DNA from: a virus
IMG/VR virus record: IMGVR_UViG_3300046455_000220
Coordinates: 1-48,197 of that record
Length of the DNA stretch: 48,197 nucleotides
Direction: 5' to 3' (one strand)
Each line of letters begins with the position of its first letter. Positions within the stretch are counted from its first letter, which is position 1. The position numbers were made by a program, and so were the translations under genes. Below are positions 1,974-46,714 of this stretch, piece by piece. A model generated the notes under the pieces. The model had not been told where the DNA came from, searched no databases, and worked only from the letters and a program-made list of their open reading frames with translations.

Positions 1974-4043
1974 ATGGGTAATAGTACAGGTCTGCTTGCG
2001 CGCGGCGAAACGGCCCCGGGCACACCGCCCCTTACGGGCACGTTCCAAGGTCCGGTTAGGACCACACGCGCGGCCCTTATGGCCCGTGTCTCGACCGCCG
2101 AACAAGTCGACGGATACGGAATCAAAGTCCAAATCCAGGCTGGGGAAGCACATATAGCGGGGAAAAAGGGCTGGATTCTCCCTAAGGAACTCATCTTTAT
2201 TGATGAGGGCGTTTCCGGATCCGTTATCGACCGTCCCGCAATGCTGCGCCTGGAAGAGGCCGCGCGGGCGGGCCTCATTGACGTAATCGTAGTCCACAAG
2301 TTTGACCGCATTGGCCGTACGGGTCGTGCGTTCTGGTCCTGGATTTGGGCAATGGAAGATTTGGGAATTTCCTTTGTCTCCGTAACCCAGAATATTGACT
2401 CCAGTACCAAATTCGGCAAACAGCAATTGCAATTTTATGCCATGATGGCAGAGGCCGAATGGGACCTTATTCGGGACCGGACGGTTAGCGGTCGGAATAC
2501 CGCAGCACTTGAGGGCCGCTGGCCTAGCGGCACTCCCGCTTACGGGCACAAGTCGGTAGGCCCCCGCAAAAAGCGTATGGCTGTCGTCAATAAGAAGGAA
2601 GCCAAGGTAATCAAGACTGCCACTGAACTAATTCTAGATCAGGGCATGACTGCCGAGGATGCGGCACGGGAACTGAATTCCCTTGGTTACCGCACCCGTA
2701 CGGGCGCACAGTGGACCGGGCCTAACCTTACGGCGCGCCTTAAGAGCGCTACCGTTCGGGGGGAGTTCATTTACCGTAATCCCGATAAGTCGGGGAACAA
2801 GGTAAAGATGAACATTGATGGGACTCCCCTTTACGGGGACAGCATCACCATTAAGCTCCCCAAGATTCTTTCCAAGAAGCGGCATAACGCGCTGCTCGCT
2901 CGATTTAAGCTGCGCTCCCGTCCTAAGACGTCCTTTCAGGATTACCCCCTTTCTACCCGCATCGTGAGCGGGTGTGGACACTACACAGGAAGGTTTGACC
3001 GCACTAACGGGCAGAGGTTTTATCACTGCCTTAACCGTGCGGGTAAGCCGTGCAACGATCTGCCCATCGTTGCGGACGATATTGATAACGCCGTCTGGGG
3101 GAAGATTTCCGAGACGATTAACGACAGGGAGCAACTAGAGAGGATCGCCCAAGACTGGGTTAAGAAGATTCCCGGGGACATCAAAGATAAGCGGAAGCGC
3201 GTCGACGCCCTCACTAGGAGCGTCGAAAGGATTGAAACTGACCTAGTCACGGCAACGGTAAACCTTGCCACCATGACCGGCATTACCGAAAACATTAAAG
3301 CGGCTGCACTCGACAGGCTGAATACCGACCTTATGGGGGAACGGGAGTTGCTGCGGGAGGCCGAGGAAATCCTTAAGGAACACGAGGAGGTGGAGGCTCG
3401 CGTTAACTCGGTTATGGCCGTGGTGGAGTCGGCGCAAGCCAAAATCCGGGAAATCTCTCTCTCCGAAATGGCGGAGGTTATGGAGATCTTCAAGATTAGG
3501 GTTGAGCTTGCGGGGACCCTTAAGGGGAACCGTCCGGGCACTCCGTGCAAGATGTCTTCCTGGCACGAGGAAACGGGGGAGCTAGTCCCGGACTATGTGA
3601 GCGAGGATGAGTGGCCGGACGTTGAGGCGTTCCTCCGGGAGTCCCTTGGGCGACGCATGCCGTTCGTGCGGTCTGGTACGCCCCTGCGGGTGCAGATCAA
3701 CGGGGTGTTGTACAGGCTGCGGCATAACTGTGCGTTCTCGGAGGTCCCGGAGGAGTACGGGACCATGCAGACGCTCAAGAAGAGGCAAGAACAGCTCTGG
3801 GGGGCCGAGGTGTGGCCGCAGTTGGTGAAGGTGCTGAACATGCGCCGTCCGGGTGCTCCCATGCCTCCTGTCCGCTACCTGCCGCCTCTGATCATCAGGG
3901 GTGAGCTAGTTGGGGACCTCCGGTTGGTAGGCACCGACACCGCAGCAGACAAACAGCCTTCAACAAGGCCGTTCGGGAAGTGGAGTAAGGGGACCGACCT
4001 AGCAACAGCGCGTGGACTGCCGTTCGCCCTACTCACGAACTAG
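1974..4043 (+). CDS. int: Large serine recombinase (integrase), copy 1
   Basis: 689 aa, started at ATG 1974 because GGAGGG lies 6 bp upstream and both copies share this arrangement. The N-terminal catalytic domain has ARVSTAEQ (nucleophile Ser), DEGVSGSVIDRP and VVHKFDRIGRTGRAFW, then the recombinase domain (TPAYGHKS... RTRTGAQW), a zinc-ribbon remnant (SGCGHYTG ... YHCLNRAGKPC) and a long coiled-coil region (about residues 390-490). It catalyses site-specific integration by attP x attB recombination. No directionality factor is recognised. The C-terminal roughly 130 residues extend beyond the usual core. Confidence 0.95.
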   Translation: MGNSTGLLARGETAPGTPPLTGTFQGPVRTTRAALMARVSTAEQVDGYGIKVQIQAGEAHIAGKKGWILPKELIFIDEGVSGSVIDRPAMLRLEEAARAGLIDVIVVHKFDRIGRTGRAFWSWIWAMEDLGISFVSVTQNIDSSTKFGKQQLQFYAMMAEAEWDLIRDRTVSGRNTAALEGRWPSGTPAYGHKSVGPRKKRMAVVNKKEAKVIKTATELILDQGMTAEDAARELNSLGYRTRTGAQWTGPNLTARLKSATVRGEFIYRNPDKSGNKVKMNIDGTPLYGDSITIKLPKILSKKRHNALLARFKLRSRPKTSFQDYPLSTRIVSGCGHYTGRFDRTNGQRFYHCLNRAGKPCNDLPIVADDIDNAVWGKISETINDREQLERIAQDWVKKIPGDIKDKRKRVDALTRSVERIETDLVTATVNLATMTGITENIKAAALDRLNTDLMGERELLREAEEILKEHEEVEARVNSVMAVVESAQAKIREISLSEMAEVMEIFKIRVELAGTLKGNRPGTPCKMSSWHEETGELVPDYVSEDEWPDVEAFLRESLGRRMPFVRSGTPLRVQINGVLYRLRHNCAFSEVPEEYGTMQTLKKRQEQLWGAEVWPQLVKVLNMRRPGAPMPPVRYLPPLIIRGELVGDLRLVGTDTAADKQPSTRPFGKWSKGTDLATARGLPFALLTN

Positions 4044-4457
4044 GCAGCACGGAGGCCCTGGAGGGCCCTGGGAGACCCGTAGAGGGCCCCGGGGCCCTCC
4101 CAGTGCGTCTAGGGGCCAGAGGGGCCCCAGGGGGCAGGGCGTAACGCTTCCGGGCAGGGAGCCGCTTACTGTCCCGGGACACGTCTCTACGCGGGTTGAC
4201 CCCTTGCGGCGCCTGGAACTTGAGCCGAACGTGAATCTTTCTCAGTATTTGCGAGACGACCGAACACCCCGCTAGTGTGTCCGTAACAGAGCGATGATCC
4301 CCGAAAGGTTGTACTCCTCACCGCGTGATCCACGCCACACGAGAAAGGGTTACGCACACACCTGGGGTGTGTGCTACGGTGTGAATACAACACCGGAGGA
4401 GCACAACGACGAATGTCACCGAAACTCACCGCACAGTTAGAGACCTAGGATAATTTC
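4044..4457. promoter_or_regulatory. Regulatory gap between integrase and HTH gene
   Basis: Starts with GC-rich hairpins (4049-4140) that may end integrase transcription. A degenerate operator copy is at 4262-4282 and a perfect one at 4354-4374, followed by TACGGT (4375-4380) as a possible -10. A strong GGAGGAG (4395-4401) precedes a possible 11-codon leader ORF (ATG 4413, stop TAG 4446). Directly before the HTH gene is TAGGAT-N6-ATG, which would give a leaderless transcript. This is the second candidate location for attP or an inter-prophage junction. Confidence 0.5.
4354..4374. promoter_or_regulatory. 21-bp operator palindrome upstream of HTH gene
   Basis: Perfect 9-bp arms GCACACACC and GGTGTGTGC around TGG. 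In the standard frame of this regulon the -35 would be ACGCAC and the -10 TACGGT (4375-4380), so the promoter is weaker than those in the cassette island. Its position just before a helix-turn-helix gene would suit autoregulation. Confidence 0.7.
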
Positions 4458-4460
4458 ATG
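4446..4460 (+). promoter_or_regulatory. Possible leaderless promoter -10 for the HTH gene
   Basis: TAGGAT ends 6 bp before the ATG at 4458, the spacing expected if transcription starts at the A of the start codon. There is no Shine-Dalgarno at this start. Three other genes (41707, 41988, 44452) share the arrangement. Confidence 0.5.
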
Positions 4461-4889
4461 TCTTCCCCCCTCAGCCGTAAGCCTCATCCCAACCCGGAAA
4501 TTGAGGCCACGATTAAGGCTGTGTACGACAATGCGGGACAGCAGGTTCGTACATATGCGGAGGCCGCCGCATATCTGGGAGTAAGCAAAAACACCATTGC
4601 TTCCCGCTTGCGGAGGGCGGACCTATCAGCCCTAAGCGCGGTGCCTTACGAGGATTACACGCCCGAAAATGTCGACCCTGAACACTTTGGTGATCGGGAG
4701 CACATTATGCTCCGCACACTTGCGGAGGAAGCGTCGGGCATGCGTATTAGTGACAAACGACAGAGGGAACTTGACCGCTTTAAGACAAAGTCCCTTAATC
4801 TCGTCGTTGTGTACGACCCAGAATACGGCTATTACTGGCGTAAGCGCGGCCAGCGTGACCGTGATTTCTGGGTGGTCCAAGAGGACTAG
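4458..4889 (+). CDS. Helix-turn-helix protein, candidate phage regulator
   Basis: 143 aa. Residues about 30-55 (RTYAEAAAYLGVSKNTIASR) form a clear helix-turn-helix; the rest has no recognised domain and ends in an aromatic, basic segment (YGYYWRKRGQRDRDFW). It lacks a Shine-Dalgarno and has TAGGAT-N6-ATG, typical of leaderless messages such as those of several phage repressors. A perfect 21-bp operator lies 84 bp upstream. It is one of the candidates for the protein that reads the phage-wide operator; that link is inference. Confidence 0.7.
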   Translation: MSSPLSRKPHPNPEIEATIKAVYDNAGQQVRTYAEAAAYLGVSKNTIASRLRRADLSALSAVPYEDYTPENVDPEHFGDREHIMLRTLAEEASGMRISDKRQRELDRFKTKSLNLVVVYDPEYGYYWRKRGQRDRDFWVVQED

Positions 4890-6860: not shown

Positions 6861-6881
6861 GCACACCCCCTGGGTGTGTGC
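6861..6881. promoter_or_regulatory. 21-bp operator inside the early operon
   Basis: GCACACCCC-CTG-GGTGTGTGC, perfect outer arms. On the plus strand the -35 position reads ATGCAC, but the -10 position (6882-6887, ACGGAA) has no -10 resemblance. It may act as a repressor site that blocks elongation rather than as a promoter. Confidence 0.7.
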
Positions 6882-15780: not shown

Positions 15781-16017
15781 TTACGCCGCAAGTGTCTTAG
15801 GCTCGATGGAACGGTCTACCTGGTAAATCGCGTAATACCCGTAGCCCGTGTGCTCTTGATAAAAACCGAAACGGCTACCAAAGCCAGCATCGGTGAAATA
15901 TTTAGCCCAGTAGTGGACGCGGTTCCAAGCTGCGGCCTCACCCTGGACTGTTTCCACAAACTCACTGCGGTTAGCCTTTGCCCGCTTAGACGTGCGGACA
16001 ATGCAAGAGTCACCCAT
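15781..16017 (-). CDS. Small unknown protein in a reversed cassette
   Basis: 78 aa; the start is ATG at 16017 with AGGAAG 7-8 bp upstream (a longer frame from 16038 lacks such a site). Basic N-terminus (RTSKRAKANRSEF) and aromatic Gly/Tyr-rich centre (GFYQEHTGYGYYAIY). No family recognised. A TTGCAC-N17-TTCACT promoter containing the 21-bp operator reads toward it, so it belongs to the same regulon as the plus-strand cassettes. Confidence 0.65.
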   Translation of the reverse strand: MGDSCIVRTSKRAKANRSEFVETVQGEAAAWNRVHYWAKYFTDAGFGSRFGFYQEHTGYGYYAIYQVDRSIEPKTLAA

Positions 16018-16086
16018 AAAGTCACTTCCTAAGCGCATGGCTGGGTTTAGGGCCCCCTAATTGGCCCCGCCCCTTCCAACACCCCT

Positions 16087-16255: not shown

Positions 16256-17557
16256 GTGGCAGTCGTCACGGAGCGGCCGCAGCCGAAGGACACCGTTTAC
16301 AGCGGCCTCTTGGGGCGCACCGTTCGCACGCTGGCCCCGGGGACCGAGGGGGACCCCGTAGGGATCCTAGGGAGCCTCCTAGTCGGTTTCTCGGCCCTGG
16401 TCGGCCCGCAAGCGCGAGTCAAGATTTCTGCCCTGGATAACCACCCTGCCCTAGTTTGGGCCCTTTTGTTGGGGCGTACCTCGGATGGCCGGAAAGGCTC
16501 GGCCACTAGTGCCGCTAAAGCGCTACTGCGGTTGGCGGATGACGACTTTTTCAAGACGAACACCGTTAGCGGTATTTCGTCGGGTGAGGGACTCATTAAG
16601 GAAGTGGAGGATCCTACTCCGGAAGATTTGGACCTAGTGGAAAGCATTACAGCCCTAACCGGTACCCCGGTTAGCGTTGACCCTGATCTGATTGGAAACC
16701 AACGGCGGTTTGTGATCGAATCGGAGTACGCTAACCTCATGACTCGTTCCGCGAGGAGCGGCTCCCTTTCCGGTGTCCTCCGTCAAGCGTGGGACGGAGA
16801 CGACCTTAAGACACGAACCAAAAAAGGCAGCATGACCGCTACCCGCCCTCACATCGCCGTTTTGGGACACATTAGTCCCGGAGAGTTCCGGGACATGATG
16901 CGCGCTAAGGAACTTGCCGGAGGTAGCTATAACCGCTATCTCATCCTCCACGTTCATCAGGTCCAGAGTTTGCCCGACGGGGGCGATGTGGACATGAAAG
17001 AACTAAAGGCTTGCGCTAAAGAACTAGCCTTCAATGCGGCATGGTTCAATCAGGGAGACGATTTCCTGATTACCCGCACTAAGGATGCGGGAGAGTATTG
17101 GGCCGATTACATGTATGAGGCTATTGCAAGGGAGAATCCGGAGGATGAGACGCTAGCCCAGTTTACGGCCCGTAGGGCCCCGTACACGCTTAGGCTTGCG
17201 GCCCTGTACGCGATTGCGGACGGCCGGAAACAGATTGGGGTAAGGGACCTTAAGGCGGCAGACGCACTCTTCCGATACAGCATGGAAAGCGCGGAGTACA
17301 CGCTAAAGTCTGCCTATAGCCGTTCGGAGGCTCCTCCAGCCACTAACCCTCTCGCAAGGGCCCTGTATCAGGCCGGGGATGACGGTCTAAGCATTAGCGA
17401 AATTAGGGATATCGTCGGTAAGGGTAAGCCTAGGCCGGAAATTGATGCGATGATGGACGGCTTGCCCGTCGATTCCAAGCTAAGGCGTAACGACATGGGG
17501 CGGCCGTCGACCGTGTTCTACTGGGTTGGGGAAGAGGGCGCGGACGGGTACGTTTAG
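16256..17557 (+). CDS. DUF3987-like ATPase with C-terminal winged helix
   Basis: 433 aa from GTG 16256 with GGGGAG 8 bp upstream. LVGFSALVGPQARVKI, LLLGRTSDGRKGSATSAAK (a variant P-loop) and the SGEGLIKEVED segment follow the DUF3987/YfjI pattern seen in phage and plasmid primase-helicase proteins. The C-terminus (LARALYQAGDDGLSISEIRD ... GRPSTVFYWV) looks like a winged helix. Probably a replication ATPase; it is outside the main early operon and has its own leader. Confidence 0.7.
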   Translation: MAVVTERPQPKDTVYSGLLGRTVRTLAPGTEGDPVGILGSLLVGFSALVGPQARVKISALDNHPALVWALLLGRTSDGRKGSATSAAKALLRLADDDFFKTNTVSGISSGEGLIKEVEDPTPEDLDLVESITALTGTPVSVDPDLIGNQRRFVIESEYANLMTRSARSGSLSGVLRQAWDGDDLKTRTKKGSMTATRPHIAVLGHISPGEFRDMMRAKELAGGSYNRYLILHVHQVQSLPDGGDVDMKELKACAKELAFNAAWFNQGDDFLITRTKDAGEYWADYMYEAIARENPEDETLAQFTARRAPYTLRLAALYAIADGRKQIGVRDLKAADALFRYSMESAEYTLKSAYSRSEAPPATNPLARALYQAGDDGLSISEIRDIVGKGKPRPEIDAMMDGLPVDSKLRRNDMGRPSTVFYWVGEEGADGYV

Positions 17558-17565
17558 CGGTTGGT

Positions 17566-17580
17566 TATTACGGCGTAATA
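17566..17580. repeat. 15-bp palindrome TATTACGGCGTAATA (copy 1)
   Basis: Seven-base arms TATTACG/CGTAATA around one base. The exact reverse complement occurs at 19982-19996. Both sit in gaps ahead of operator-promoters. Confidence 0.6.
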
Positions 17581-17601
17581 GGGCCTCCGAAAGGGGGCCC
17601 T
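17580..17601 (+). terminator. Hairpin terminator after DUF3987 gene
   Basis: AGGGCCTCC-GAAA-GGGGGCCCT stem-loop (one G-T pair) followed by T-poor sequence; same GAAA-loop design as the other cassette terminators. Confidence 0.6.
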
Positions 17602-17670
17602 TAGCCCATGTCGGGATTTATGGCCTTAAGCTAACCCTAAACGGACATTAGGGTAAACCCCTTAAGGGTG

Positions 17671-17699
17671 TTGCACACCCCTAGGGTGTGTGCTTTAAT
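17671..17699 (+). promoter_or_regulatory. Operator-promoter for gene 17756
   Basis: TTGCAC (17671-17676), 17 bp, TTTAAT (17694-17699). The 21-bp palindrome spans 17673-17693, covering the -35 and the full spacer. Initial transcribed sequence AGTCCTAACG matches the sister promoters. Confidence 0.85.
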
Positions 17700-17755
17700 A
17701 GTCCTAACGGCGGGGCCGACAGGGCGGTCCCCCACCAACCCTTAAGGGGCCCCCA

Positions 17756-18058
17756 ATGTTCGTTCTCGCCTACATTGAGATCACTGCCACCGCTAACACG
17801 CTGGGCATGTCCGGTGAGGGCGCGTTCACCGTTTACGGTGAGGGCTCTTTTAACCTCCGTTTCTCGGACGTTTACGAGGGCATGGACACTGCCTGGGACA
17901 TGCACGTTTCGGACTGCTTTAAGTACGACTCCATTACCGTTGAGCACGTCGTTTACTACTACGACAACGAGGACCAGAGCCGCGACGTGCCGTTTTACGC
18001 GGCCCCGTCGACGCGTGAGCGTCTCGACGGATGGCGAGAGATGGCTTACGCCTGCTAA
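17756..18058 (+). CDS. Acidic unknown protein (cassette 1)
   Basis: 100 aa from ATG 17756, behind an AAGGGG site. Residues include ITATANTLGMSGEGAF, an acidic centre (YYYDNEDQSRDVPFY) and STRERLDGWREMAYAC. No family recognised. Own operator-promoter at 17671 and a hairpin (18075-18096) downstream, so it is a self-contained cassette. Confidence 0.7.
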   Translation: MFVLAYIEITATANTLGMSGEGAFTVYGEGSFNLRFSDVYEGMDTAWDMHVSDCFKYDSITVEHVVYYYDNEDQSRDVPFYAAPSTRERLDGWREMAYAC

Positions 18059-18074
18059 GGCGCATCCCCCCTTT

Positions 18075-18096
18075 AGGGCCTCTCCGGGGGCCCTTT
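18075..18096 (+). terminator. Hairpin terminator after gene 17756
   Basis: AGGGCC/GGCCCT-type stem in AGGGCCTCTCCGGGGGCCCT followed by TTT. Confidence 0.6.
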
Positions 18097-18116
18097 GGCG
18101 TTTCCGGGATTAGGTA

Positions 18117-18145
18117 TTGCACACCCCCTTAGGGTGTGCTTTAAT
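18117..18145 (+). promoter_or_regulatory. Operator-promoter for gene 18179
   Basis: TTGCAC (18117-18122), 17 bp, TTTAAT (18140-18145); 21-bp palindrome 18119-18139. Confidence 0.85.
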
Positions 18146-18178
18146 GGCCTTAGCGACGAAAGCGGAGGGGTTAGGGCA

Positions 18179-18298
18179 GTGCGAGAAACGGTTAAGGGTA
18201 TACTGGTACGGGCAAGCGTTACCGCCATTGTGACGTTTGCTATCTACGGGCTCATGGTTTTCTACCGTTACCGGTTCCCCATTTACCTCTACTCTTAG
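18179..18298 (+). CDS. 39-aa membrane peptide (cassette 2)
   Basis: GTG 18179 with GGAGGGG 8 bp upstream. A short charged N-terminus, one transmembrane helix (ASVTAIVTFAIYGLMVFY) and the end RYRFPIYLYS. Too short for most gene finders, but it has its own operator-promoter and ribosome site. A role in membrane interference or superinfection exclusion is possible but unproven. Confidence 0.6.
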   Translation: MRETVKGILVRASVTAIVTFAIYGLMVFYRYRFPIYLYS

Positions 18299-18300
18299 GG

Positions 18301-18329
18301 TTGCACACCCCTAGCGGGTGTGCTTTAAT
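18301..18329 (+). promoter_or_regulatory. Operator-promoter for gene 18381
   Basis: TTGCAC (18301-18306), 17 bp, TTTAAT (18324-18329); palindrome 18303-18323. Begins two bases after the previous gene's stop. Confidence 0.85.
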
Positions 18330-18380
18330 TAACCCATCGGGCGGGATTAGGGCCCCGTCTCCAGCGGAAAGGGATTAGCC

Positions 18381-18575
18381 ATGATGGACACGGTTCTCTG
18401 GCATGACGCAGGCACCCCGGTTGCGCGGTGCGTGCACTGCCTTGAGAAAGCCCCTGGAGGCCACTACACGTGCACCGTAGAGGTTCCCTGCCAGGACTGT
18501 TACGACGCGGCCCTCTACTGGGCCGAGGAGGCCGGTAACTACCTCGTGAACGATTACGGCCCCCAGGGCGACTAG
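18381..18575 (+). CDS. Small zinc-ribbon-like protein (cassette 3)
   Basis: 64 aa from ATG 18381 with GGAAAGGGA upstream. CVHC and CQDC, 21 residues apart, form a four-Cys metal site; the C-terminal half is acidic (YWAEEAGNYLVNDYG). No family recognised. Confidence 0.65.
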   Translation: MMDTVLWHDAGTPVARCVHCLEKAPGGHYTCTVEVPCQDCYDAALYWAEEAGNYLVNDYGPQGD

Positions 18576-18588
18576 GAGCGTGGACCAC

Positions 18589-18610
18589 GAGGGCCCCTAC
18601 GGGGGCCCTC
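18589..18610 (+). terminator. Hairpin after gene 18381
   Basis: GAGGGCCCC-TAC-GGGGGCCCTC stem-loop, 9-10 bp, without a clear T-run. Confidence 0.5.
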
Positions 18611-18695
18611 TGGCATGTCTGGGCACGAGGAGGCCGAGCCTGTACCGTGAGGGGCGCAGGGAGGCCCTGGAGGGCCGTAGGGAGGCAGGGGACGC

Positions 18696-18899
18696 ATGGA
18701 CGGGTACAACCCATTTCAGTACGCGGCGCCGGGGGACACGTTTAGGACCACCGTTAACGGCATTGACTTTCAGTCGCTAAAGCTGGATGACGGGTCGTAC
18801 GCCGTTAGCGGCGGCGACTGGACGGCCGTAGGGTGTCCTAACGAATTGGCCGTAATGGAAGCGATTATGACCCATTTGGAAGAACTCCAAAACTCTTGA
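18696..18899 (+). CDS. Unknown small protein (cassette 4)
   Basis: 67 aa from ATG 18696, AGGGGA site upstream. FRTTVNGIDFQSLKLDDGSY and GDWTAVGCPNELAVMEAIMT suggest a small alpha/beta protein. No recognisable family. Unlike its neighbours it has no operator-promoter directly in front, so it probably depends on read-through from 18301. Confidence 0.6.
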   Translation: MDGYNPFQYAAPGDTFRTTVNGIDFQSLKLDDGSYAVSGGDWTAVGCPNELAVMEAIMTHLEELQNS

Positions 18900-18909
18900 G
18901 GTTAGGGCT

Positions 18910-18938
18910 ATGCACACACCCCAAGGGTGTGCTTTAAT
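18910..18938 (+). promoter_or_regulatory. Operator-promoter for gene 18988
   Basis: ATGCAC as -35 (18910-18915), 17 bp, TTTAAT (18933-18938); palindrome 18912-18932. Confidence 0.8.
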
Positions 18939-18987
18939 AGTCCTAACGCCGAGCACGGCGGGTAACAACTCAAGAGGGATCCGGCAA

Positions 18988-19152
18988 ATGCCTACTTTCA
19001 GTGCCCGGAGTGGTCAGAAAATCGAAATGATTTTCATGGGTGATGAGTATGAGGTAATCGTCAGGGATGCGGATGGGGAGGTCATCTCCACTACCCGGAT
19101 CAACCGCCTTAAGGCGGCGGAGATCATGATTCAGGTCACCGACCAAGACTAA
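18988..19152 (+). CDS. Small unknown protein (cassette 5)
   Basis: 54 aa from ATG 18988 with AGAGGGA about 8 bp upstream. Beta-rich look (MIFMGDEYEVIVRDADGEVI) followed by a helix (LKAAEIMIQVT). No family recognised. Flanked by its own operator-promoter and a perfect terminator. Confidence 0.6.
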   Translation: MPTFSARSGQKIEMIFMGDEYEVIVRDADGEVISTTRINRLKAAEIMIQVTDQD

Positions 19153-19167
19153 GCCGGAAAGGGAACG

Positions 19168-19191
19168 GGGGCCCCGAAAGGGGCCCCTTTT
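19168..19191 (+). terminator. Perfect terminator after gene 18988
   Basis: GGGGCCCC-GAAA-GGGGCCCC, 8 perfect pairs, followed by TTTT. Confidence 0.8.
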
Positions 19192-19194
19192 CCT

Positions 19195-19368
19195 TTGGCC
19201 TCCAGGAATGGACAAAAGCCACAAATCGGACTTGCCCCTAATGTCCCTAATGTCCGATTAGGGGGTTTTATCATCATATAGTGGACGACGGGGTATTTAT
19301 CATCTCATGGCGCCCATTGGGCGAAATATTAGACATGCCTAATCACTTAAAGTTACCGGGATTAGGGG
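19195..19368. repeat. AT-rich repeat patch A (possible origin part)
   Basis: Intergenic stretch with no gene. It holds CTAATGTCC twice in direct tandem (19239-19256), flanked by CGGAC and ATTAGGGG so that it can also fold, and TTTATCAT twice (19267 and 19298 areas) in an unusually AT-rich context for this phage. The same word types recur in patch B (19749-19975). Confidence 0.45.
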
Positions 19369-19397
19369 TTGCACACACCCATAGGGTGTGCCATAAT
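19369..19397 (+). promoter_or_regulatory. Operator-promoter for gene 19440
   Basis: TTGCAC (19369-19374), 17 bp, CATAAT (19392-19397); palindrome 19371-19391. Confidence 0.85.
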
Positions 19398-19439
19398 TAA
19401 GACATCGAAAGGGGGAAGGGCCCCCGAGGAAAGGGAAGC

Positions 19440-19715
19440 ATGAACGCGAAGCTTAAGACCCGCAAGGAAGCTAACGGAACTTACTCTTGGGCCCTGATCG
19501 CGAAGGACACGGCGGTTACGTGGAACGCCACGGAGGCTAAGACCCCCTGGGGGGCCCGCGTACAGGGCGCCCCGTACCTGAAGATGGAACTGGACGCAAT
19601 CGCCTGGATGGCCACCCAGGAGGCCAAGCCTCGCAGCGGGTACACGGGGGACTTTGAGCCGGTGAGCCCGGCAGTGATGGAAGGCAGGCGGAAGCTGGAA
19701 GCGCGAGGCTTCTAG
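19440..19715 (+). CDS. Unknown protein (cassette 6)
   Basis: 91 aa from ATG 19440, GGAAAGGGAAG upstream. Basic N-terminus (MNAKLKTRKEANGTYSWALI), central WNATEAKTPWGARVQGAPY. No family recognised. It lies between the two AT-rich repeat patches, so a DNA-related role is conceivable but not shown. Confidence 0.65.
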   Translation: MNAKLKTRKEANGTYSWALIAKDTAVTWNATEAKTPWGARVQGAPYLKMELDAIAWMATQEAKPRSGYTGDFEPVSPAVMEGRRKLEARGF

Positions 19716-19720
19716 GAAAG

Positions 19721-19748
19721 GGCCCCCCGGAAGGGGGGTCTTTCTTTT
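19721..19748 (+). terminator. Terminator after gene 19440
   Basis: GGCCCCCC-GGAA-GGGGGGTC stem followed by TTTCTTTT. Confidence 0.75.
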
Positions 19749-19975
19749 GCCCTTAATCGGACATGTCGCTAATGTCTGACATACCCGAAATGTCGGAAAT
19801 GTCCCTTAAGTCGGAAATGTCCACTATGGCATATCTTATGATGATAAATCATGACATAAAGGACCAATCGGTCATGTCGCCCTGCGCGACTAATATCATG
19901 ATAAAACCCCCTATGTCCGAAATGTCCCTTTTGCCCCTTTTGTCCATACCTCTAACCACCTACCCCTAAGGGGTG
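19749..19975. repeat. Iteron-like repeat patch B (possible origin or regulatory array)
   Basis: About 220 bp without a credible gene. Words of the form AATGTCC/AATGTCG occur about eight times (for example GAAATGTCGGAAATGTCCC near 19787), plus ATGATAAATCATGACATAAA and ATCATGATAAAA, an AT-rich segment in an otherwise GC-rich genome. The open frame through it only repeats the peptide MSEMS and is not a gene. Such arrays are typical of replication origins or clustered regulator sites. Confidence 0.5.
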
Positions 19976-19981
19976 CGGGAT

Positions 19982-19996
19982 TATTACGCCGTAATA
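19982..19996. repeat. 15-bp palindrome TATTACGCCGTAATA (copy 2)
   Basis: Exact reverse complement of the element at 17566-17580, 21 bp ahead of the next operator-promoter. Confidence 0.6.
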
Positions 19997-20016
19997 GCTA
20001 AGGGCCCTAAGGTGGC

Positions 20017-20045
20017 TTGCACACCCCTAACGGGTGTGCTTTAAT
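20017..20045 (+). promoter_or_regulatory. Operator-promoter for gene 20086
   Basis: TTGCAC (20017-20022), 17 bp, TTTAAT (20040-20045); palindrome 20019-20039. Confidence 0.85.
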
Positions 20046-20085
20046 GGAGACATCGCAAGGGCAACGGGTTAGCGGAGGCAAGGCA

Positions 20086-20448
20086 ATGGAAACCGTCCGG
20101 GTTTTTTGGAAGTGCACCACTAAGGGTTGCAAGTCTCACGCGGTTACCGACCTTGAGGCCCACCGTGGTAAGCCGTTCCTTACCGGCGAATACGCGCCCC
20201 TTTGGGGTAAGTCTCACGACATTCACGTCTGGGTGTTTGGTGGCACCCCGGAGGTACAGGAGGCAATGCGCCTCCTGTACGCCGCTAACGGGGCCTCCTG
20301 CGAGGCGCACGGCCCTATGGCCGGTAAGCACCTTAAGGGCTCGTACAACCCGGAAAAGGTTTGTGACGGCCGCTGCACGAACGCTAAGAGCGCCGCTTGC
20401 GACTGCCAGTGCGGCGGGAAGAATCACGGTAACCGTTGGGCCTCCTAA
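20086..20448 (+). CDS. Cys-rich protein with actinophage zinc motif (cassette 7)
   Basis: 120 aa from ATG 20086 (GGAGG upstream; an upstream in-frame start would lie inside the promoter). The N-terminus has CTTKGCKSH, and the C-terminus CDGRCTNAKSAACDCQCGG followed by KNHG, a Cys/His cluster often seen in Streptomyces phage and plasmid proteins. Probably binds zinc. Function unknown. Confidence 0.7.
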   Translation: METVRVFWKCTTKGCKSHAVTDLEAHRGKPFLTGEYAPLWGKSHDIHVWVFGGTPEVQEAMRLLYAANGASCEAHGPMAGKHLKGSYNPEKVCDGRCTNAKSAACDCQCGGKNHGNRWAS

Positions 20449-20453
20449 GGACC

Positions 20454-20476
20454 AGGGCCCCCGAAAGGGGGCCCTT
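20454..20476 (+). terminator. Terminator after gene 20086
   Basis: AGGGCCCCC-GAAA-GGGGGCCCT, 9 perfect pairs; followed by the next promoter within 6 bp. Confidence 0.7.
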
Positions 20477-20481
20477 AGGGG

Positions 20482-20510
20482 TTGCACACCCCTAACGGGT
20501 GTGCTTTACT
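20482..20510 (+). promoter_or_regulatory. Operator-promoter for gene 20541
   Basis: TTGCAC (20482-20487), 17 bp, TTTACT (20505-20510); palindrome 20484-20504. Confidence 0.85.
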
Positions 20511-20540
20511 TAGGTCAACGACAAAGGGGAGGGGCTAACC

Positions 20541-21701
20541 GTGGCAACGGTGCTCAAGTGGAAGCGGATTGAAGCGGGCCAGTATCACGCTTACGGGGAA
20601 ACTCACTCTTACTACGTTGAAGAGCACGAGGGACAATGGCGGATAAGGGTCTTTAAGGACCTTATGCCTATCGCCCTTAACTACTATGGCGACAATAAGC
20701 GGGAAAACGTCATGCTGGCTAACGCGTTCGAAAGCCTGGGGGACGGTTACCGCCCGGAGGACCACGGGCACCGTGAGCGCATTACGGAAGCGGTAGCGAT
20801 AACCCACAAAGCCATTATGGCGGGTATAGACATAGAGGCCGCTAACCCTGTAACCTCTAACCACACCCCGGCGGAAGGAAACGAAATGGACGACAACGAC
20901 ATTGAGCGTATTACCGGCGAGAGTGCCGAGACTCGCGCGGTAATGCGGGCCCTGGGAACCGAAACCGACATGCACATTCAGGCGGGGGAACGGCTCCCCA
21001 TGGGATCCGTGGAAGAGTACGCGACAGCCGCGCGACTGTGGTTGGGTGACCACACGGAATTGACCGGTAAGGAAATCGACAACGCGGATTACGGCGTTGC
21101 TCTGGAATGGTTCCGGGAAACGGTCGGGTGGGTTGACCCGAACGGCACTAACCCGCTAAAGTCTGAATCACAAGCCAGCGGAAAGGGATACAACGTGTCT
21201 GAGTCTAAGCTTTTCAGTGCGGCTAACCGGCAAGCCGTGCACCACAAGGATGACGCGGAAAAGTGCAACACCGTTAAGCGCGCTGCGGCGCGAGACTTCA
21301 ACGGCTTTCCCGTACTGAACTGGGCAGAGGCAGCGGAAATCAAGGCTTGCGCTAACTGTGTCACCGAGGTTGAAGCGGAGTTGATCCTCATGGCGGAGGC
21401 CCTGGAGGCCCCTACGGACACGACCCCCGACCCGGAGACCGAGGAGGTCCCGGAGGACGCTCCGGAGGCCCCGGAGGAGGCCCCGGAGGAGGCCCCGGAG
21501 GACGAGGAAGAGGACGACCCTTCCCCGGAAGAGCGCGCTAAGGCTGAATTCAGCCTGAACGGTGACCCCTGGGTGGCGTTCGAGAACTGGACCAAAATCG
21601 CGGTGGCTAACCGCCCTAAGGGCGACGCGGAGGAGTCCAACGCTTACCGCTACTGGATGGACAAGTCCACGCGAATCGGTGAGATTCTCGGAGTCGAGTA
21701 A
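20541..21701 (+). CDS. Large acidic unknown protein (cassette 8)
   Basis: 386 aa from GTG 20541 with GGGGAGGGG upstream. The N-terminal 90 residues look globular (WKRIEAGQYHAYGETHSYYV), a central part has LFSAANRQAVHHKDDAEKCN, and residues about 290-335 are an almost pure Pro/Glu/Asp linker (repeats of APEEAPEEAPED). The C-terminus is a short globular end (DPWVAFENWTKIAV). No family recognised. The largest product of the cassette island; acidic repeats can mimic DNA or bind basic partners, but that is only a thought. Confidence 0.7.
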   Translation: MATVLKWKRIEAGQYHAYGETHSYYVEEHEGQWRIRVFKDLMPIALNYYGDNKRENVMLANAFESLGDGYRPEDHGHRERITEAVAITHKAIMAGIDIEAANPVTSNHTPAEGNEMDDNDIERITGESAETRAVMRALGTETDMHIQAGERLPMGSVEEYATAARLWLGDHTELTGKEIDNADYGVALEWFRETVGWVDPNGTNPLKSESQASGKGYNVSESKLFSAANRQAVHHKDDAEKCNTVKRAAARDFNGFPVLNWAEAAEIKACANCVTEVEAELILMAEALEAPTDTTPDPETEEVPEDAPEAPEEAPEEAPEDEEEDDPSPEERAKAEFSLNGDPWVAFENWTKIAVANRPKGDAEESNAYRYWMDKSTRIGEILGVE

Positions 21702-21717
21702 AACCCCTAAAGGGGGG

Positions 21718-21747
21718 TTGCGCTAACCCTAAGGGTTAGGGCATAAT
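21718..21747 (+). promoter_or_regulatory. Variant operator-promoter for lsr2
   Basis: TTGCGC (21718-21723), 18 bp, CATAAT (21742-21747). Instead of the 21-bp class the spacer holds a different perfect palindrome CTAACCCT-A-AGGGTTAG (21723-21739). A hairpin CGGGGGCC-GAAA-GGCCCCCG (21764-21783) lies in the leader before the gene. Confidence 0.7.
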
Positions 21748-21763
21748 CCTAAGCAGAAGGGAA

Positions 21764-21783
21764 CGGGGGCCGAAAGGCCCCCG
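21764..21783 (+). terminator. Hairpin in the lsr2 leader
   Basis: Eight perfect pairs with a GAAA loop, located downstream of the promoter and 42 bp before the ATG, without a T-run. It may be an attenuator or a stabilising leader hairpin rather than a terminator. Confidence 0.45.
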
Positions 21784-21825
21784 CTCCTGACACCCGGCGG
21801 AAATCAAGGAAAAGGAAACCCGGTC

Positions 21826-22251
21826 ATGGCGCGCAAGATTATTGAGCTGGTAGAGGTTATCGACGACGTTACCGGCGACGTTATCCCCGAAGAAGACTCG
21901 GACATTGTTCGATTCTCCCTTGACGGTGTGGCGTTTAAGCTGGAAACGTCTAAGGATCAGGCGAACGGTTTCCGGGAAATGTTCGCTAAGTACATTGCTT
22001 GCGCGGCCGTCGACGAACCCCAGGTTGCCACTCCGGCCCGTGCCCGGAACACCGCGCCTATCCGTACGCAGACGGCCGCGCCGAGGGGCCCCCGACGGAA
22101 CACCGGCCACAACCTGAACATGGTTCGCCAGTGGGCTATCGGAGAGGGCTACGAGGTGGGAGACCGGGGCCGGATCCCCATGGACATTAAGCAGTCTTAC
22201 GCGGAAGCGCACAACGTTTCCGTTGATGACCTCATGCCCGTAAAGGGCTAA
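21826..22251 (+). CDS. lsr2: Phage-encoded Lsr2-like nucleoid protein
   Basis: 141 aa from ATG 21826 with AAGGAAAAGGAAA upstream. The N-terminal oligomerisation part (ELVEVIDDVTGDVI ... VRFSLDGVAFKLE) and the C-terminal DNA-binding part (VRQWAIGEGYEVGDRGRIPM) match Lsr2, the actinobacterial H-NS counterpart that binds AT-rich DNA and silences foreign genes. The RGR of the minor-groove-binding loop is present. It has a longer linker than host Lsr2. It could silence host or rival phage genes, or counter host Lsr2. Confidence 0.85.
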   Translation: MARKIIELVEVIDDVTGDVIPEEDSDIVRFSLDGVAFKLETSKDQANGFREMFAKYIACAAVDEPQVATPARARNTAPIRTQTAAPRGPRRNTGHNLNMVRQWAIGEGYEVGDRGRIPMDIKQSYAEAHNVSVDDLMPVKG

Positions 22252-22274
22252 AGCTAGGCCGGAAACGAGAAAAG

Positions 22275-22299
22275 GGCCCCCGCCATAATGGCGGGGGCC
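22275..22299. terminator. Terminator after lsr2
   Basis: GGCCCCCGCC-ATAAT-GGCGGGGGCC, 10 perfect pairs; serves the convergent ends of lsr2 and the minus-strand holin-like gene. Confidence 0.7.
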
Positions 22300-22331
22300 T
22301 TAGTCGTTTAGGGGGTTAGATACATACTTAC

Positions 22332-22550
22332 TTACTCACCCGATGGGACATCAGTGTAAAGGGCCTCCAGGACCTTAGTGTCGTGCTCGGTAACCGGCAC
22401 GGTTGCAGAGTCCACGTTGACGCCTAGGACGCCTGCCACGGCCCCTAGGACAAGACCCGTGGGGAGGTTGTGGAAGTAGAACGCGACTAGGGGGAGTAGG
22501 GCCGCTACAGCGGCGTACAGGCGTGCGCGGTTACGGTCGAGAAAGGTCAT
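22332..22550 (-). CDS. Putative holin (small membrane protein)
   Basis: 72 aa from ATG 22550, AGGAGC about 10 bp upstream. A basic start (MTFLDRNRARLYAAVAALLP), two hydrophobic segments (about 9-25 and 29-45) and an acidic hydrophilic tail fit small actinophage holins. It lies in the late-gene direction past the endolysin, but two plus-strand cassettes separate the two genes. The holin role is inference. Confidence 0.5.
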   Translation of the reverse strand: MTFLDRNRARLYAAVAALLPLVAFYFHNLPTGLVLGAVAGVLGVNVDSATVPVTEHDTKVLEALYTDVPSGE

Positions 22551-22570
22551 TAGCGTTTTGCTCCTAACGG

Positions 22571-22600
22571 TTGCGCGGGAAGGATCCCGCATGTTTTAAT
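22571..22600 (+). promoter_or_regulatory. Variant operator-promoter for gene 22654
   Basis: TTGCGC (22571-22576), 18 bp, TTTAAT (22595-22600). The palindrome is again different: GCGGGA-AGGA-TCCCGC (22575-22590). It overlaps the leader of the minus-strand gene at 22550, so expression in the two directions may interfere. Confidence 0.65.
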
Positions 22601-22653
22601 CAACGTGTCGCCCTAAGGGGGCGATGAACCCCGGCGGAAAAGGGATAAAGGAA

Positions 22654-22962
22654 ATGGGACAAGGATACGGACTAGTCGTTATGGACTGCGTCAACTGTCA
22701 CAATGTGCTTACCTTTATGGCGGAGAATGCGGATAGGATTATGGCAATGCCGATCCTGCCGGAAACCGGTTTGCCGGTAGACGTCCAAATGGTCAACGGT
22801 AAGCCCGTTCCTCGTGAGTTCACCGACGACGAATTGCAGCGTGCGCAGGGCAACAAAAAGCCTATGTGCCTTGACTGCGCAGAAAGGTCTGTACGGTCGA
22901 TGCGTGCCCGGGGGTTTATACCCCCGGAGATTGACCGTAGGGCGTACGACATTCCGGCCTAA
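22654..22962 (+). CDS. Zinc-ribbon-like protein (cassette 9)
   Basis: 102 aa from ATG 22654. CVNC near residue 15 and CLDC near residue 72 form a split four-Cys site; the C-terminus is basic (RSVRSMRARGF). No family named. Inserted between endolysin and holin-like genes on the opposite strand. Confidence 0.65.
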   Translation: MGQGYGLVVMDCVNCHNVLTFMAENADRIMAMPILPETGLPVDVQMVNGKPVPREFTDDELQRAQGNKKPMCLDCAERSVRSMRARGFIPPEIDRRAYDIPA

Positions 22963-22980
22963 GGACTAACCGCTAAGGGC

Positions 22981-23004
22981 AACCCCCCGCCTTAGCGGGG
23001 GGTT
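22981..23004 (+). terminator. Terminator fused to the next promoter
   Basis: AACCCCCCGC / GCGGGGGGTT stem; the final TT is the first two bases of the TTGCAC of the next promoter. Confidence 0.7.
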
Positions 23005-23031
23005 GCACACCCCTTAGGTGTGTGCTTTAAT
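23003..23031 (+). promoter_or_regulatory. Operator-promoter for gene 23072
   Basis: TTGCAC (23003-23008), 17 bp, TTTAAT (23026-23031); palindrome 23005-23025. Confidence 0.85.
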
Positions 23032-23071
23032 GGAGACACAAGCAAGGGGCACCAACGGAGGGGTTAGGGAA

Positions 23072-23314
23072 ATGCGTTTCGGAACCTCGCACGCACCGCA
23101 CCGGATAGATGCGATTCACCAGACCCTAGAGGGCAAGGTAAATCAGCAGGCTTACGAGGAATTCAACACCCCGGAGGAGGCCCGCAAAGGGCTTACCCGC
23201 ATGTATCGCGAGTATGACGCGGAAGTTTTGGGGGTTAGCGGGGACACTGAGTTGGTTTGGATGAACCTTTACGAAAACGGTGTCCTGACCGATCAACGTG
23301 TGGCGGAGTTTTAA
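23072..23314 (+). CDS. Unknown protein (cassette 10)
   Basis: 80 aa from ATG 23072 with GGAGGGG upstream. Contains QQAYEEFNTPEEARKGLTRM and VSGDTELVWMNLYENG; a small alpha/beta protein without a recognised family. Last plus-strand cassette before the late genes. Confidence 0.65.
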   Translation: MRFGTSHAPHRIDAIHQTLEGKVNQQAYEEFNTPEEARKGLTRMYREYDAEVLGVSGDTELVWMNLYENGVLTDQRVAEF

Positions 23315-23319
23315 AGGTT

Positions 23320-23344
23320 AGGGCCCCCGAAAGGGGGCCCTTTT
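23320..23344. terminator. Bidirectional terminator between cassette island and endolysin
   Basis: AGGGCCCCC-GAAA-GGGGGCCCT with TTTT on the plus strand; lies between convergent gene ends at 23314 and 23349. Confidence 0.8.
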
Positions 23345-23348
23345 CCTT

Positions 23349-24116
23349 TTAGCCCTTGTAACCCTTAAAGATTGCAGCCCACTGGGCCTTACCGCACACG
23401 GTGTCCGGTCGACCATGAGCCTGATACGCAGGGTGCGCAATCTGATAGGCCTTAACCGCAGCCTGGGTGCCCGTGCCGTACATCGGCCCCGGACCAGACT
23501 TGTAATAGCGCTTATAGCCTAGGGCAATTAGTCGCTTATCTAGGAGCGTGACATACGGGGAAGCCTTACCGGGGTAAAGCTTATCGAACCCGGGGAATGC
23601 CGGAACCTTTACAGGCTTAGTCACCTTACCGGGAAGGGTCGTCTTAACCGGTGCAGCCGGATAGGCCGGATAGCCGTAACCCAGGACCGTAGCGACCTTA
23701 CGGGGACGCGTCCGCTCATAGGCGCCATCACCATTAGACTGAGAACCGCCATTACCGCTAGAGGTATTACCCTCATAGGTAGTAATCGTGGTGTCCGTAA
23801 AGGACTTTACGATACCGACGTGATCGGCCAAACCGTCAACGTCCCAATCGTAAAAGACGATAGCGCCAACCTTAGGGGTCTCGCCCCACTGCTTACGGGC
23901 CTTAAACCAATTCACGTGCGCAGGGGTGTAAGCAAACTTGCCAACGGCCGCAGCGTTACCGGATTTGTCCGCGCAATAGGAAATGTACATGTCGCACCAC
24001 GGCTGAAAGTTCAGGCCGTACCACTTACCGAATACGGTGTTGTTATTCGGGCCCTCCTTATAGGCCTTATCGACCCAGGTTTCACACTCTGCCAGCATTG
24101 CCTTAACGCCAGACAT
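23349..24116 (-). CDS. Endolysin: CHAP-type amidase plus peptidoglycan-binding domain
   Basis: 255 aa from ATG 24116 (AAAGGAGTAGGT directly upstream). PWCDMYISYC carries the CHAP-type catalytic Cys, VGAIVFYDWDVDGLADHVGIV the His, and TYEGNTSSG the following segment. After a Pro/Lys linker the C-terminus (YVTLLDKRLIALGYKRYYKS ... TQAAVKAYQ) is a peptidoglycan-binding type 1 domain. Cuts host cell-wall peptide bonds at lysis. No signal peptide is visible, so it needs a holin. Confidence 0.9.
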   Translation of the reverse strand: MSGVKAMLAECETWVDKAYKEGPNNNTVFGKWYGLNFQPWCDMYISYCADKSGNAAAVGKFAYTPAHVNWFKARKQWGETPKVGAIVFYDWDVDGLADHVGIVKSFTDTTITTYEGNTSSGNGGSQSNGDGAYERTRPRKVATVLGYGYPAYPAAPVKTTLPGKVTKPVKVPAFPGFDKLYPGKASPYVTLLDKRLIALGYKRYYKSGPGPMYGTGTQAAVKAYQIAHPAYQAHGRPDTVCGKAQWAAIFKGYKG

Positions 24117-24149
24117 ACCTACTCCTTTCTTTTGGCATGAGAAAGGCCC

Positions 24150-24171
24150 CCACCAACCCGGTAGGGGCCTG
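24150..24171 (-). terminator. Hairpin between endolysin and upstream gene
   Basis: AGGCCCC...GGGGCCT stem in the 71-bp gap; moderate support. Confidence 0.45.
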
Positions 24172-24187
24172 AAAGCTTTCAAGGGGT

Positions 24188-45485: not shown

Positions 45486-46192
45486 CGTCTTTTACAGCTA
45501 CAGGGGCCAGTGAGGAAATAGCCAGAGCGCTTTTTAACGCTTTGGCTTTTCTTCCCGCTAGAACTAATCCCCCTCTTGTACGATGCACGTTTGAAGCCAA
45601 TAAGGTCACTTTCCTTGCAACCGACTGTTACACCATCGGGCAGGATTGGGCAGTAATGGAATCGGGCCCTAAGAGGCCCGTAGAGGTTTGGATAGATCAG
45701 AATGCAGCAAAAGAGATCGAAAGCGCGGCACGCAAAGACCTCCTACCCAAATCACGCGCGCCGAACGGTTCGGACGGAAAAGGGACCGGGCTATTCACTT
45801 ATCACCCTGGGGACGCTCTGCATTTCACTCCACAACTCACGGGTGACCCCGCGTCCGGCCGTGACCACACGGGCCATTTCCCCGCTACACCCACAGCCGC
45901 AGGTGTGGTAACACCAGACGCACTCTGGGGGGCCTCTGATGACCTCCTAGAGGCCCTGGAGGAGCGCGACCCGTACTTGCCCAACGTGGCCATGTTTGAT
46001 CCTTCGCTACTCGCGAGGTTTTCAAAGGTCAAGACTCCGGGCAAAGAATTGACGCACATGGACATGCATTTCGGTGACGCCTCTAACGTGGTCCTGGTCA
46101 AGATTGGGAGCCGCTTTAGGGGCGCCATCATGGCGGTTGATAGGGAACGTGCGTCCGCGCACGAGAATATGGCCCCGGAGGGACTATGGTAA
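45482..46192 (+). CDS. Sliding-clamp-like protein, copy 2 (complete)
   Basis: 236 aa from GTG 45482. The complete form of the partial gene at position 1: begins TSFTATGASEEIARALFNAL like the first helix of a beta clamp, then ATDCYTIGQDW and FRGAIMAVDR. At two thirds of bacterial beta length it may have two clamp domains or a divergent third. No phage DNA polymerase is seen, so it would serve the host replicase. Identity of the family is a judgement from motifs. Confidence 0.55.
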   Translation: MTSFTATGASEEIARALFNALAFLPARTNPPLVRCTFEANKVTFLATDCYTIGQDWAVMESGPKRPVEVWIDQNAAKEIESAARKDLLPKSRAPNGSDGKGTGLFTYHPGDALHFTPQLTGDPASGRDHTGHFPATPTAAGVVTPDALWGASDDLLEALEERDPYLPNVAMFDPSLLARFSKVKTPGKELTHMDMHFGDASNVVLVKIGSRFRGAIMAVDRERASAHENMAPEGLW

Positions 46193-46272
46193 GCGGCCTT
46201 ATTGCAGATGCTCTTTTCTGGTTTGTCATCGGATCCCTGGCATGGATCATTATGGAGGTGGCCCGTAAGTGA
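46186..46272 (+). CDS. 28-aa membrane peptide, copy 2
   Basis: ATG inside the clamp end (ATGGTAA). LIADALFWFVIGSLAWIIME keeps the helix of copy 1; the tail is VARK. TGA overlaps the GTG of the winged-helix gene. Start mechanism differs from copy 1 (TAATG there), yet coupling is kept. Confidence 0.6.
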   Translation: MVSGLIADALFWFVIGSLAWIIMEVARK

Positions 46273-46487
46273 ACCGAACACAGCTTAGGGTTTTGGCCCT
46301 ACTGCGTACGAAGAAATGGGTTTCGACCACTGAACTTTGTTCACCCCAAGGGGGAGCGAATAACGGCACCCGTAGGGTGCGGGAACTCAGAGAATTGGGC
46401 TACCCGATCGTTAAGCGCCATAAGGCCAATACGACCGATTGGGAGTACAGCCTCATTCAGCCTCAACAAGAGGAGGTCATTTTTTGA
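46269..46487 (+). CDS. Small winged-helix protein, copy 2
   Basis: 72 aa from GTG 46269; nearly identical to the 1200-1418 product (NRTQLRVLALLRTKKWVSTT). Here it follows the membrane peptide directly because the HNH gene is absent. Confidence 0.65.
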   Translation: MNRTQLRVLALLRTKKWVSTTELCSPQGGANNGTRRVRELRELGYPIVKRHKANTTDWEYSLIQPQQEEVIF

Positions 46488-46714
46488 CGCGGGAAACCGT
46501 CAAGGTTAAGCGGCGTACCTATGGCGAGGGGGCCGCTAATGGTGGCCTCATGCTGCGCCCCCGTGCGGTGGCCAGAGTCAAGGGCGTGTCCGGCTACGCG
46601 GGGTGTTGGTGCTGTGACTGGGCCCAGGATGGGCGTTCGCGGCGGATCATGCGGCGGATCATGCGCCGACGAGAGGAGCGCGCGTGGCTGCGCGCATGGC
46701 GCACGGAGGCATGA
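46484..46714 (+). CDS. Small basic Cys protein, copy 2
   Basis: 76 aa from TTG 46484 with AGGAGG (46471-46476) upstream. GYAGCWCCDWAQDGRSRR holds three cysteines; the tail RRREERAWLRAW matches copy 1. The N-terminal 25 residues are absent from copy 1, a sign of fast change in this gene. Confidence 0.55.
   Translation: MTRETVKVKRRTYGEGAANGGLMLRPRAVARVKGVSGYAGCWCCDWAQDGRSRRIMRRIMRRREERAWLRAWRTEA

Follow-up and report, generated by a model that had tools for sequence, protein, structure and literature searches.

Inverted-repeat promoters standing before small genes have been described in cluster K mycobacteriophages, where they are known as extended start-associated sequences (ESAS) (PMC3203893, Pope 2011; PMC11373665, Adephagia 2024). 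In cluster A mycobacteriophages, one repressor acts at 20-30 genome-wide sites and silences the prophage (PMC6550527), and the morons of lambdoid prophages are typically expressed in the lysogen (PMC7067206). Here we analyzed a virus record of 48,197 bp (IMG/VR record IMGVR_UViG_3300046455_000220, hereafter the window) from a temperate actinophage lineage, all features of which are known here from sequence, and in it an island of small genes running from the end of a helicase-like gene at 17557 to the endolysin gene at 23349 on the minus strand. We consider it probable that this island forms the variable, accessory part at the end of the rightward early region and consists of short, presumably repressor-controlled transcription units, arranged in a chain and exchanged unit by unit.

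Eight of the island's 12 small genes (one of the 12, at 22332-22550, is on the minus strand) lie downstream of an operator-promoter of the form TTGCAC-17-TTTAAT, in which a 21-bp inverted repeat, GCACACMCC-N3-GGKGTGTGC, fills the spacer. About 15 copies of this repeat are found in the window, and eight of them are inside the island, which makes up 12% of the window; these start at 17673, 18119, 18303, 18912, 19371, 20019, 20484, and 23005, and each forms the spacer of a promoter whose -35 is TTGCAC or ATGCAC and whose -10 is TTTAAT, CATAAT, or TTTACT. A search of both strands with GCACACMCCNWWNGGGTGTGC, allowing up to three mismatches, gave 29 hits versus 0.12 expected in shuffles. Among 40 distinct promoter-type copies in the window and related contigs, the -35 is TTGCAC in 38, the -10 is TTTAAT or a near-variant, and both arms are invariant at positions 1-4, 6, and 8, with C or A at position 7 of each. 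All relatives carry the identical operator sequence. The arms differ at position 7 in 24 of the 40 copies, which would be unpaired there as RNA, indicating that conservation acts on half-sites in the DNA rather than on an RNA stem; the idea of an RNA hairpin was rejected on this variation. The dyad resembles two half-sites for a dimeric protein.

The second recurrent element is a stable GC hairpin, which closes most units. Perfect tetraloop hairpins (stem of at least 7, with dinucleotide shuffles as control) number seven in the island versus 0.25 in shuffles (28-fold) and 19 in the whole window versus 0.75, and their loops are mostly GAAA or UNCG. For nine of the ten hairpins tested, at most one of 200 shuffles folded as well; that of gA, the weaker one, was equalled by 20 of 200 (z -1.55). 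Most hairpins have no clean T run; they are predicted to terminate transcription. The hairpin at 22979-23006 ends within the TTGC of the -35 at 23003, so that terminator and promoter are fused, and no hairpin stands between gH (20541-21701) and the lsr2 promoter. The elements and genes are as follows (window coordinates, strand).

17580-17603 (+): hairpin after the helicase-like gene, GAAA loop; at -19 kcal/mol it beats all 200 shuffles
17671-17699 (+): operator-promoter 1; TTGCAC, 21-bp operator 17673-17693, TTTAAT
17756-18058 (+): gA, 100 amino acids (aa), no assigned role; the weaker hairpin 18074-18095 follows
18117-18145 (+): operator-promoter 2
18179-18298 (+): gB, about 39 aa, one hydrophobic segment; operator but no hairpin
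18301-18329 (+): operator-promoter 3
18381-18575 (+): gC, 64 aa, Cys pairs; hairpin 18589-18610, UACG loop
18696-18899 (+): gD, 67 aa; neither its own operator or promoter nor its own hairpin
18910-18938 (+): operator-promoter 4
18988-19152 (+): gE, 54 aa; hairpin 19168-19187, GAAA loop
19369-19397 (+): operator-promoter 5, CATAAT -10
19440-19715 (+): gF, 91 aa; hairpin at about 19722-19739
20017-20045 (+): operator-promoter 6
20086-20448 (+): gG, 120 aa, Cys-rich, phrog_6842; hairpin 20454-20475
20482-20510 (+): operator-promoter 7, TTTACT -10
20541-21701 (+): gH, 386 aa, acidic C-terminal part, no family
21725-21751 (+): promoter-like TTGCGC..CATAAT before lsr2, conserved, without the 21-bp operator
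21764-21783: hairpin between this promoter-like sequence and lsr2
21826-22251 (+): lsr2, 141 aa; hairpin 22275-22299 follows
22332-22550 (-): small gene with a hydrophobic stretch
22572-22598 (+): gK promoter-like region, TTGC..TTTAAT with a different inverted repeat
22654-22962 (+): gK, 102 aa, two Cys pairs; hairpin 22979-23006 follows
23003-23031 (+): operator-promoter 8
23072-23314 (+): gL, 80 aa; hairpin 23320-23341 shared with the convergent endolysin end
23349-24182 (-): predicted endolysin, named from its position and homology to aligned relatives rather than from a family search

An earlier note on this DNA had reported an island of about eleven small genes, most with their own operator-promoter and GAAA-loop terminator, a terminator being sometimes fused to the next promoter. 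Small cassettes with both elements are real, as the enrichment over shuffles indicates, and the fusion is present as described. The genes are indeed many, but 12 in number; eight have the operator, but complete units of operator, gene, and hairpin are six (gA, gC, gE, gF, gG, and gL). GAAA loops are common, as stated, but UNCG loops occur too, and gB and gD have no hairpin.

Among the described systems, ESAS are the closest in build. Like the cassettes of the window, they combine an inverted repeat with a recurring intergenic promoter, whose SigA-like hexamers are separated by 17-18 bp, and are located before small non-structural genes. Moreover, homologues of gG in the cluster K phages Hurricane and Larva, read by eye, lie behind a TTGAC..TAGTGT promoter with TGTTGA..TCAACA flanks and a start-associated sequence (SAS); a hairpin-forming sequence is located upstream, and the one downstream runs into the next such promoter. 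The same gene is thus found in the same kind of cassette with two unrelated inverted repeats. The window dyad differs in having a 9-3-9 architecture, a single 21 bp inside the spacer, and another sequence, compared with the two 17-bp arms and variable spacer of ESAS; the 13-bp SAS GGGATAGGAGCCC by the start codon has no copy in the window with up to two mismatches, and no mycobacterial host is established for the window phage. Inverted-repeat promoter cassettes before small genes are therefore already known from cluster K, and it is the dyad and its sequence that appear to distinguish those of the window.

The other systems resemble the island in part. In phage phiC31, likewise a temperate actinophage, a dyad repeat and numerous promoter-like repeats are scattered over the early region. 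However, its dyad CTACTCACGTGAGTAG and promoter-like repeat GGTTGCCGACNNCCTTAC, which we take to be its operators and promoters, are separate elements, and phiC31 was rejected as a direct relative because CTACTCACGTGAGTAG is absent from the window. Cluster A phages have one repressor with sites spread over the genome, as is predicted for the window, but their sites are 13-14 bp long, without dyad symmetry, and mostly off promoters, whereas the window sites are 21-bp dyads mostly inside promoters; all eight island sites are in promoters, unlike the cluster A stoperators, whose sequence, in the form searched for, is absent from the window. Both phiC31 and cluster A are functional parallels. The morons of lambdoid prophages resemble the complete, variable units of the window in being extra genes, set between other genes, with their own promoter and terminator and present or absent between relatives, but the units of the window carry a phage-wide operator that is predicted to silence them in the lysogen.

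The locus was found in four relatives, B (contigs L003 and L006), C (L008), D (L009), and E (L010, cut before the endolysin gene); L001 and L005 are the window's own phage at 99.9% and were not counted as a relative. The earlier note had proposed comparing gene content at this place across related phages: the order of the shared genes (gA, gC, gD, gE, gF, gG, gH, lsr2, the minus-strand gene, gK, gL) is identical in all, and the content differs among the five genomes by whole units. The note's refuting condition, identical genes in a constant order in every relative, is thus borne out for the order but not for the content. The gB slot holds the 39-aa peptide in the window, a 60-aa gene in B, and an 84-aa gene in C and E, and is empty in D; C and E lack gC; D lacks both gD and gE, a place where C carries a 59-aa gene; in B a 57-aa gene stands instead of gG; C and E have the additional gene gM; and a different gene (79 aa) occupies the gL slot in B. 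Before the endolysin gene, C (90 aa) and D (89 aa) have one further gene with its own operator, and the D gene has a relative at the equivalent place in L016. A leftward gene with its own hairpin, located between the helicase-like gene and gA, is present in B, C, D, and E and absent from the window. On the other side, gA, gF, gH, lsr2, and gK are conserved in all five genomes, as is the minus-strand gene; the conservation of those five argues that part of the island is core and not optional.

Protein identities are uneven along the island. Between the window and D they are 75% for gA, 97% for gC, 62% for gF, 93% for gG, 72% for gH, 74% for lsr2, 52% for gK, and 59% for gL; between the window and B, 70% for gA, 95% for gC, 91% for gD and gE, 72% for gF, 89% for gH and lsr2, and 59% for gK; with E, gA reaches 85% versus 52-72% for the other island genes. 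Identity at fourfold sites differs among genes for window-B (p 1.8e-7) and window-D (p 5.7e-10) and is not significantly heterogeneous for B-C and B-E. The unevenness within the closer pairs indicates that single units have separate histories.

The edges of these differences lie mostly at the recurrent elements. The 183-bp gB unit (18115-18297) that is absent from D marks a clean difference of one unit: the alignment breaks off at 18115, 2 bp short of a -35, and picks up again at 18297, 4 bp ahead of the following -35. The adjacent block 18298-18609, from operator to hairpin end, has 91% identity between the window and D and lies between blocks of 76-81%; since it includes promoter, leader, and hairpin, at least that transfer moved a whole unit. 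At gG, identity between the window and B ends after the -10 and resumes at the hairpin, and at the endolysin end the unrelated gL (window), 79-aa gene (B), and 89-aa gene (D) share sequence from the stop codon onward. Of 14 edges in total, 11 lie no more than 10 bp from where an operator-promoter or hairpin begins or ends; 12% would be expected, the share of positions so placed (p 2e-8). A fair reading is that the unit of change is either a gene with its switch or a gene between a fixed switch and a fixed terminator. That the operator-promoters and hairpins, as repeats of about 25-30 bp, are the joints at which homologous recombination swaps single genes within one immunity group is a bolder proposal, which we hold to be unlikely.

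Copies of the operator outside the island point to a wider regulon. One at 16093 faces left before a minus-strand gene, one precedes 40905, and others are near 44.35-44.75 kb, at 6861, and at 4354. The copy at 6861-6881, before the DnaB-like gene, is conserved but has no matching -10, and might block elongation rather than initiation. The features concerned are:

1974-4043 (+): large serine integrase, in the plus-strand gene set
4458-4889 (+): candidate immunity repressor, 143 aa, N-terminal helix-turn-helix (HTH); operator 4354-4374 upstream
40826-41479 (+): complete cassette outside the island; operator-promoter, 179-aa gene 40905-41444, GAAA hairpin

An integrase, an HTH regulator, and operators both at many early promoters and upstream of the regulator fit a repressor-controlled temperate phage regulon. 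The operator at 4354 is 104 bp upstream of the HTH gene, and in the related contig L019 it is likewise upstream of the 70%-identical HTH relative; the HTH protein is our putative repressor of the operator sites. Its HTH hits are weak, the best Pfam hit being below the cut-off; the predicted structure is confident in the N-terminal HTH and part of the helices only, and a sequence search of the PDB gave no match. The GntR-type gene 42170-42664 was rejected as the repressor, being unmatched in L015, L018, and L019, which keep the operator; it belongs to a gene run, 41692-42957, whose regulator is unmatched in several relatives. The plug-in units exchanged under one repressor that the earlier note proposed are supported in their structure, unit-wise exchange, and common operator, and binding by the repressor is presumed.

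The island would then work as follows. Flanked by the replication genes on one side and by the convergent block of lysis and structural genes on the other, it has eight units that would start at vegetative-type promoters with the dyad operator as spacer. A repressor dimer bound to the dyad would mask the two hexamers, keeping all eight units silent in the prophage; the same repression would act at 15781-16038 (-), at 40905, and probably at 44833. Infection or induction would open all units together, presumably early, each transcribed from a promoter of its own and in most cases ended at its own hairpin. With most units self-contained, any one of them can be added, lost, or replaced without disturbing its neighbours, as has occurred repeatedly in this lineage.

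Several points weigh against this interpretation. The 14 edges share slots and are not independent, and their statistics overstate the precision because alike promoters and hairpins stop alignments wherever the true crossover lay. Operator control is no fixed property of a gene: operator 8, before gL, is found in the window only (B has TTGCTAATCCCCTAAGGGCATGCTTTACT there, C and D have no operator, and E ends too close to judge), and the gF operator is lost at the aligned site in C and E, showing that an operator can be gained or lost at a single gene. In addition, lsr2, gK, and gD are outside the operator scheme, and the assignment of 4458-4889 as repressor depends on weak HTH hits and position. 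Ordinary small-gene mosaicism, in which recombination is undirected, intact genes survive, and elements are conserved because every gene needs them, would make edges coincide with elements without any joints, and it deserves serious weight, although we put it somewhat below an even chance. Selection alone would bar edges from inside genes, and open reading frames (ORFs) occupy 68.5% of the island; gM was inserted 29 bp past a -10, away from any element edge; and boundary sequences have not been found at most phage mosaic junctions, for which illegitimate exchange is favoured (PMC3029335). It accounts less readily for the 91% gC block, which spans promoter, leader, and hairpin, and for the gG/57-aa and gL/79-aa replacements, in which the replaced stretch reaches from the -10 to the hairpin or the stop codon, with repeated sequence at both ends.

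The nature of the 21-bp repeat and of the products allows two further alternatives. That the repeat is a phage activator site or an RNA element instead of a repressor operator seems quite improbable: the role of the analogous cluster K inverted repeat has been stated to be unclear (PMC11373665), and read-through RNA could form a stem followed by TTTAAT, but the arms vary independently, a spacer-filling dimer touching both hexamers fits blocking better than activation, and one site is upstream of the HTH gene itself. That the island encodes host-takeover, anti-defence, or exclusion proteins, as the earlier note expected, is possible, but we lean against it. The products are small, variable, and Cys-rich or membrane peptides under early-type control, and in a screen of Adephagia (cluster K), 13 of 66 genes strongly inhibited host growth (PMC11373665); however, searches of Pfam, PHROGs, NCBIfam, and PADLOC matched no island product to any such family, five of the genes are conserved in all five genomes as given above, and the only structure tried for an island product, that of gG, was too poor for use (mean predicted local distance difference test score 44). 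Any function given to these products is at present putative. We retain the chain of separately exchanged, presumably repressor-controlled units as the preferred reading.

As the earlier note had said, almost nothing in the island is recognisable but lsr2. Ten rightward genes were scanned, and lsr2, which encodes a DNA-bridging protein, was the only one to reach a Pfam cut-off. The hairpin between the lsr2 promoter-like sequence and the lsr2 start is attenuator-like and present in all five genomes. The inverted-repeat arms in the gK region change together, being GCGGGA/TCCCGC in three genomes including the window and CACGGG/CCCGTG in two (C and E), and this is possibly the site of a second regulator. 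The unnamed phage family phrog_6842, to which gG belongs, includes homologues in 65 mycobacteriophage records, 34-37% identical among the matches listed, and the gene has a different setting in each of four phages examined (three groups).

The island is located where the two strands of the window converge. The plus strand encodes an exonuclease, a DnaB-like helicase, a ribonucleotide reductase, a thymidylate synthase, and the helicase/primase-like gene 16256-17557, and the minus strand the endolysin, tail, head, portal, and terminase genes. Among named genomes, the helicase-like gene has its best relatives, at 26-39% identity, in Thermobifida phage P318, Streptomyces phages Ponzi, Success, and Ibantik, and one Streptomyces genome. 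In the equivalent slot, Ponzi has two different genes, an Lsr2 gene, and a further gene ahead of the minus-strand membrane protein and endolysin; in P318, minus-strand genes directly follow the helicase gene. A helicase profile scan of genomes found one distant Streptomyces locus, the repeats of which are unlike those of the window, and one metagenome-assembled genome. Against the phage collection, blastn of the island and megablast of 24001-48000 gave zero matches, as did tblastn of gH, gA, gK, and the repressor candidate against phages. The Streptomyces host assumed in the earlier note is not established, given a GC content of about 56% (54-58% in the window) and the low identity of these helicase relatives. 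An Rfam scan found two tRNAs and nothing else.

Some further observations concern the sequence itself. Two AT-rich non-coding blocks, 19207-19365 and 19750-19995, contain ATGTCCGAAATGTCC-type repeats and TTATGATGATAAATCAT palindromes, with a core ATTTATCATCTCATGGYGCCCRTTGGGYGAAATATTAGACATG that is nearly invariant across the five genomes; they are a possible replication origin. The palindrome ATTACGSCGTAAT occurs twice in the window, at 17565-17581 and 19980-19997, the second place being conserved in B and D. The window ends, 1-2500 and 45482-48197, are near copies (the same ORFs from 45482, including the integrase start), and an extra ORF, 754-1203, is present in the left copy only; the record probably overlaps itself with strain differences.

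Unlike most phage mosaic junctions, at which boundary sequences have not been found (PMC3029335), nearly every junction in this island carries repeated, recognisable sequence. Since these repeated junction sequences are found in close relatives that share one operator, the boundary-sequence model becomes directly testable here. The single-gene units, each with its own switch, may also serve as ready tools for probing small actinophage proteins. If the operator-promoters do act as joints, the immunity system's own binding site would double as a boundary sequence driving cassette exchange.

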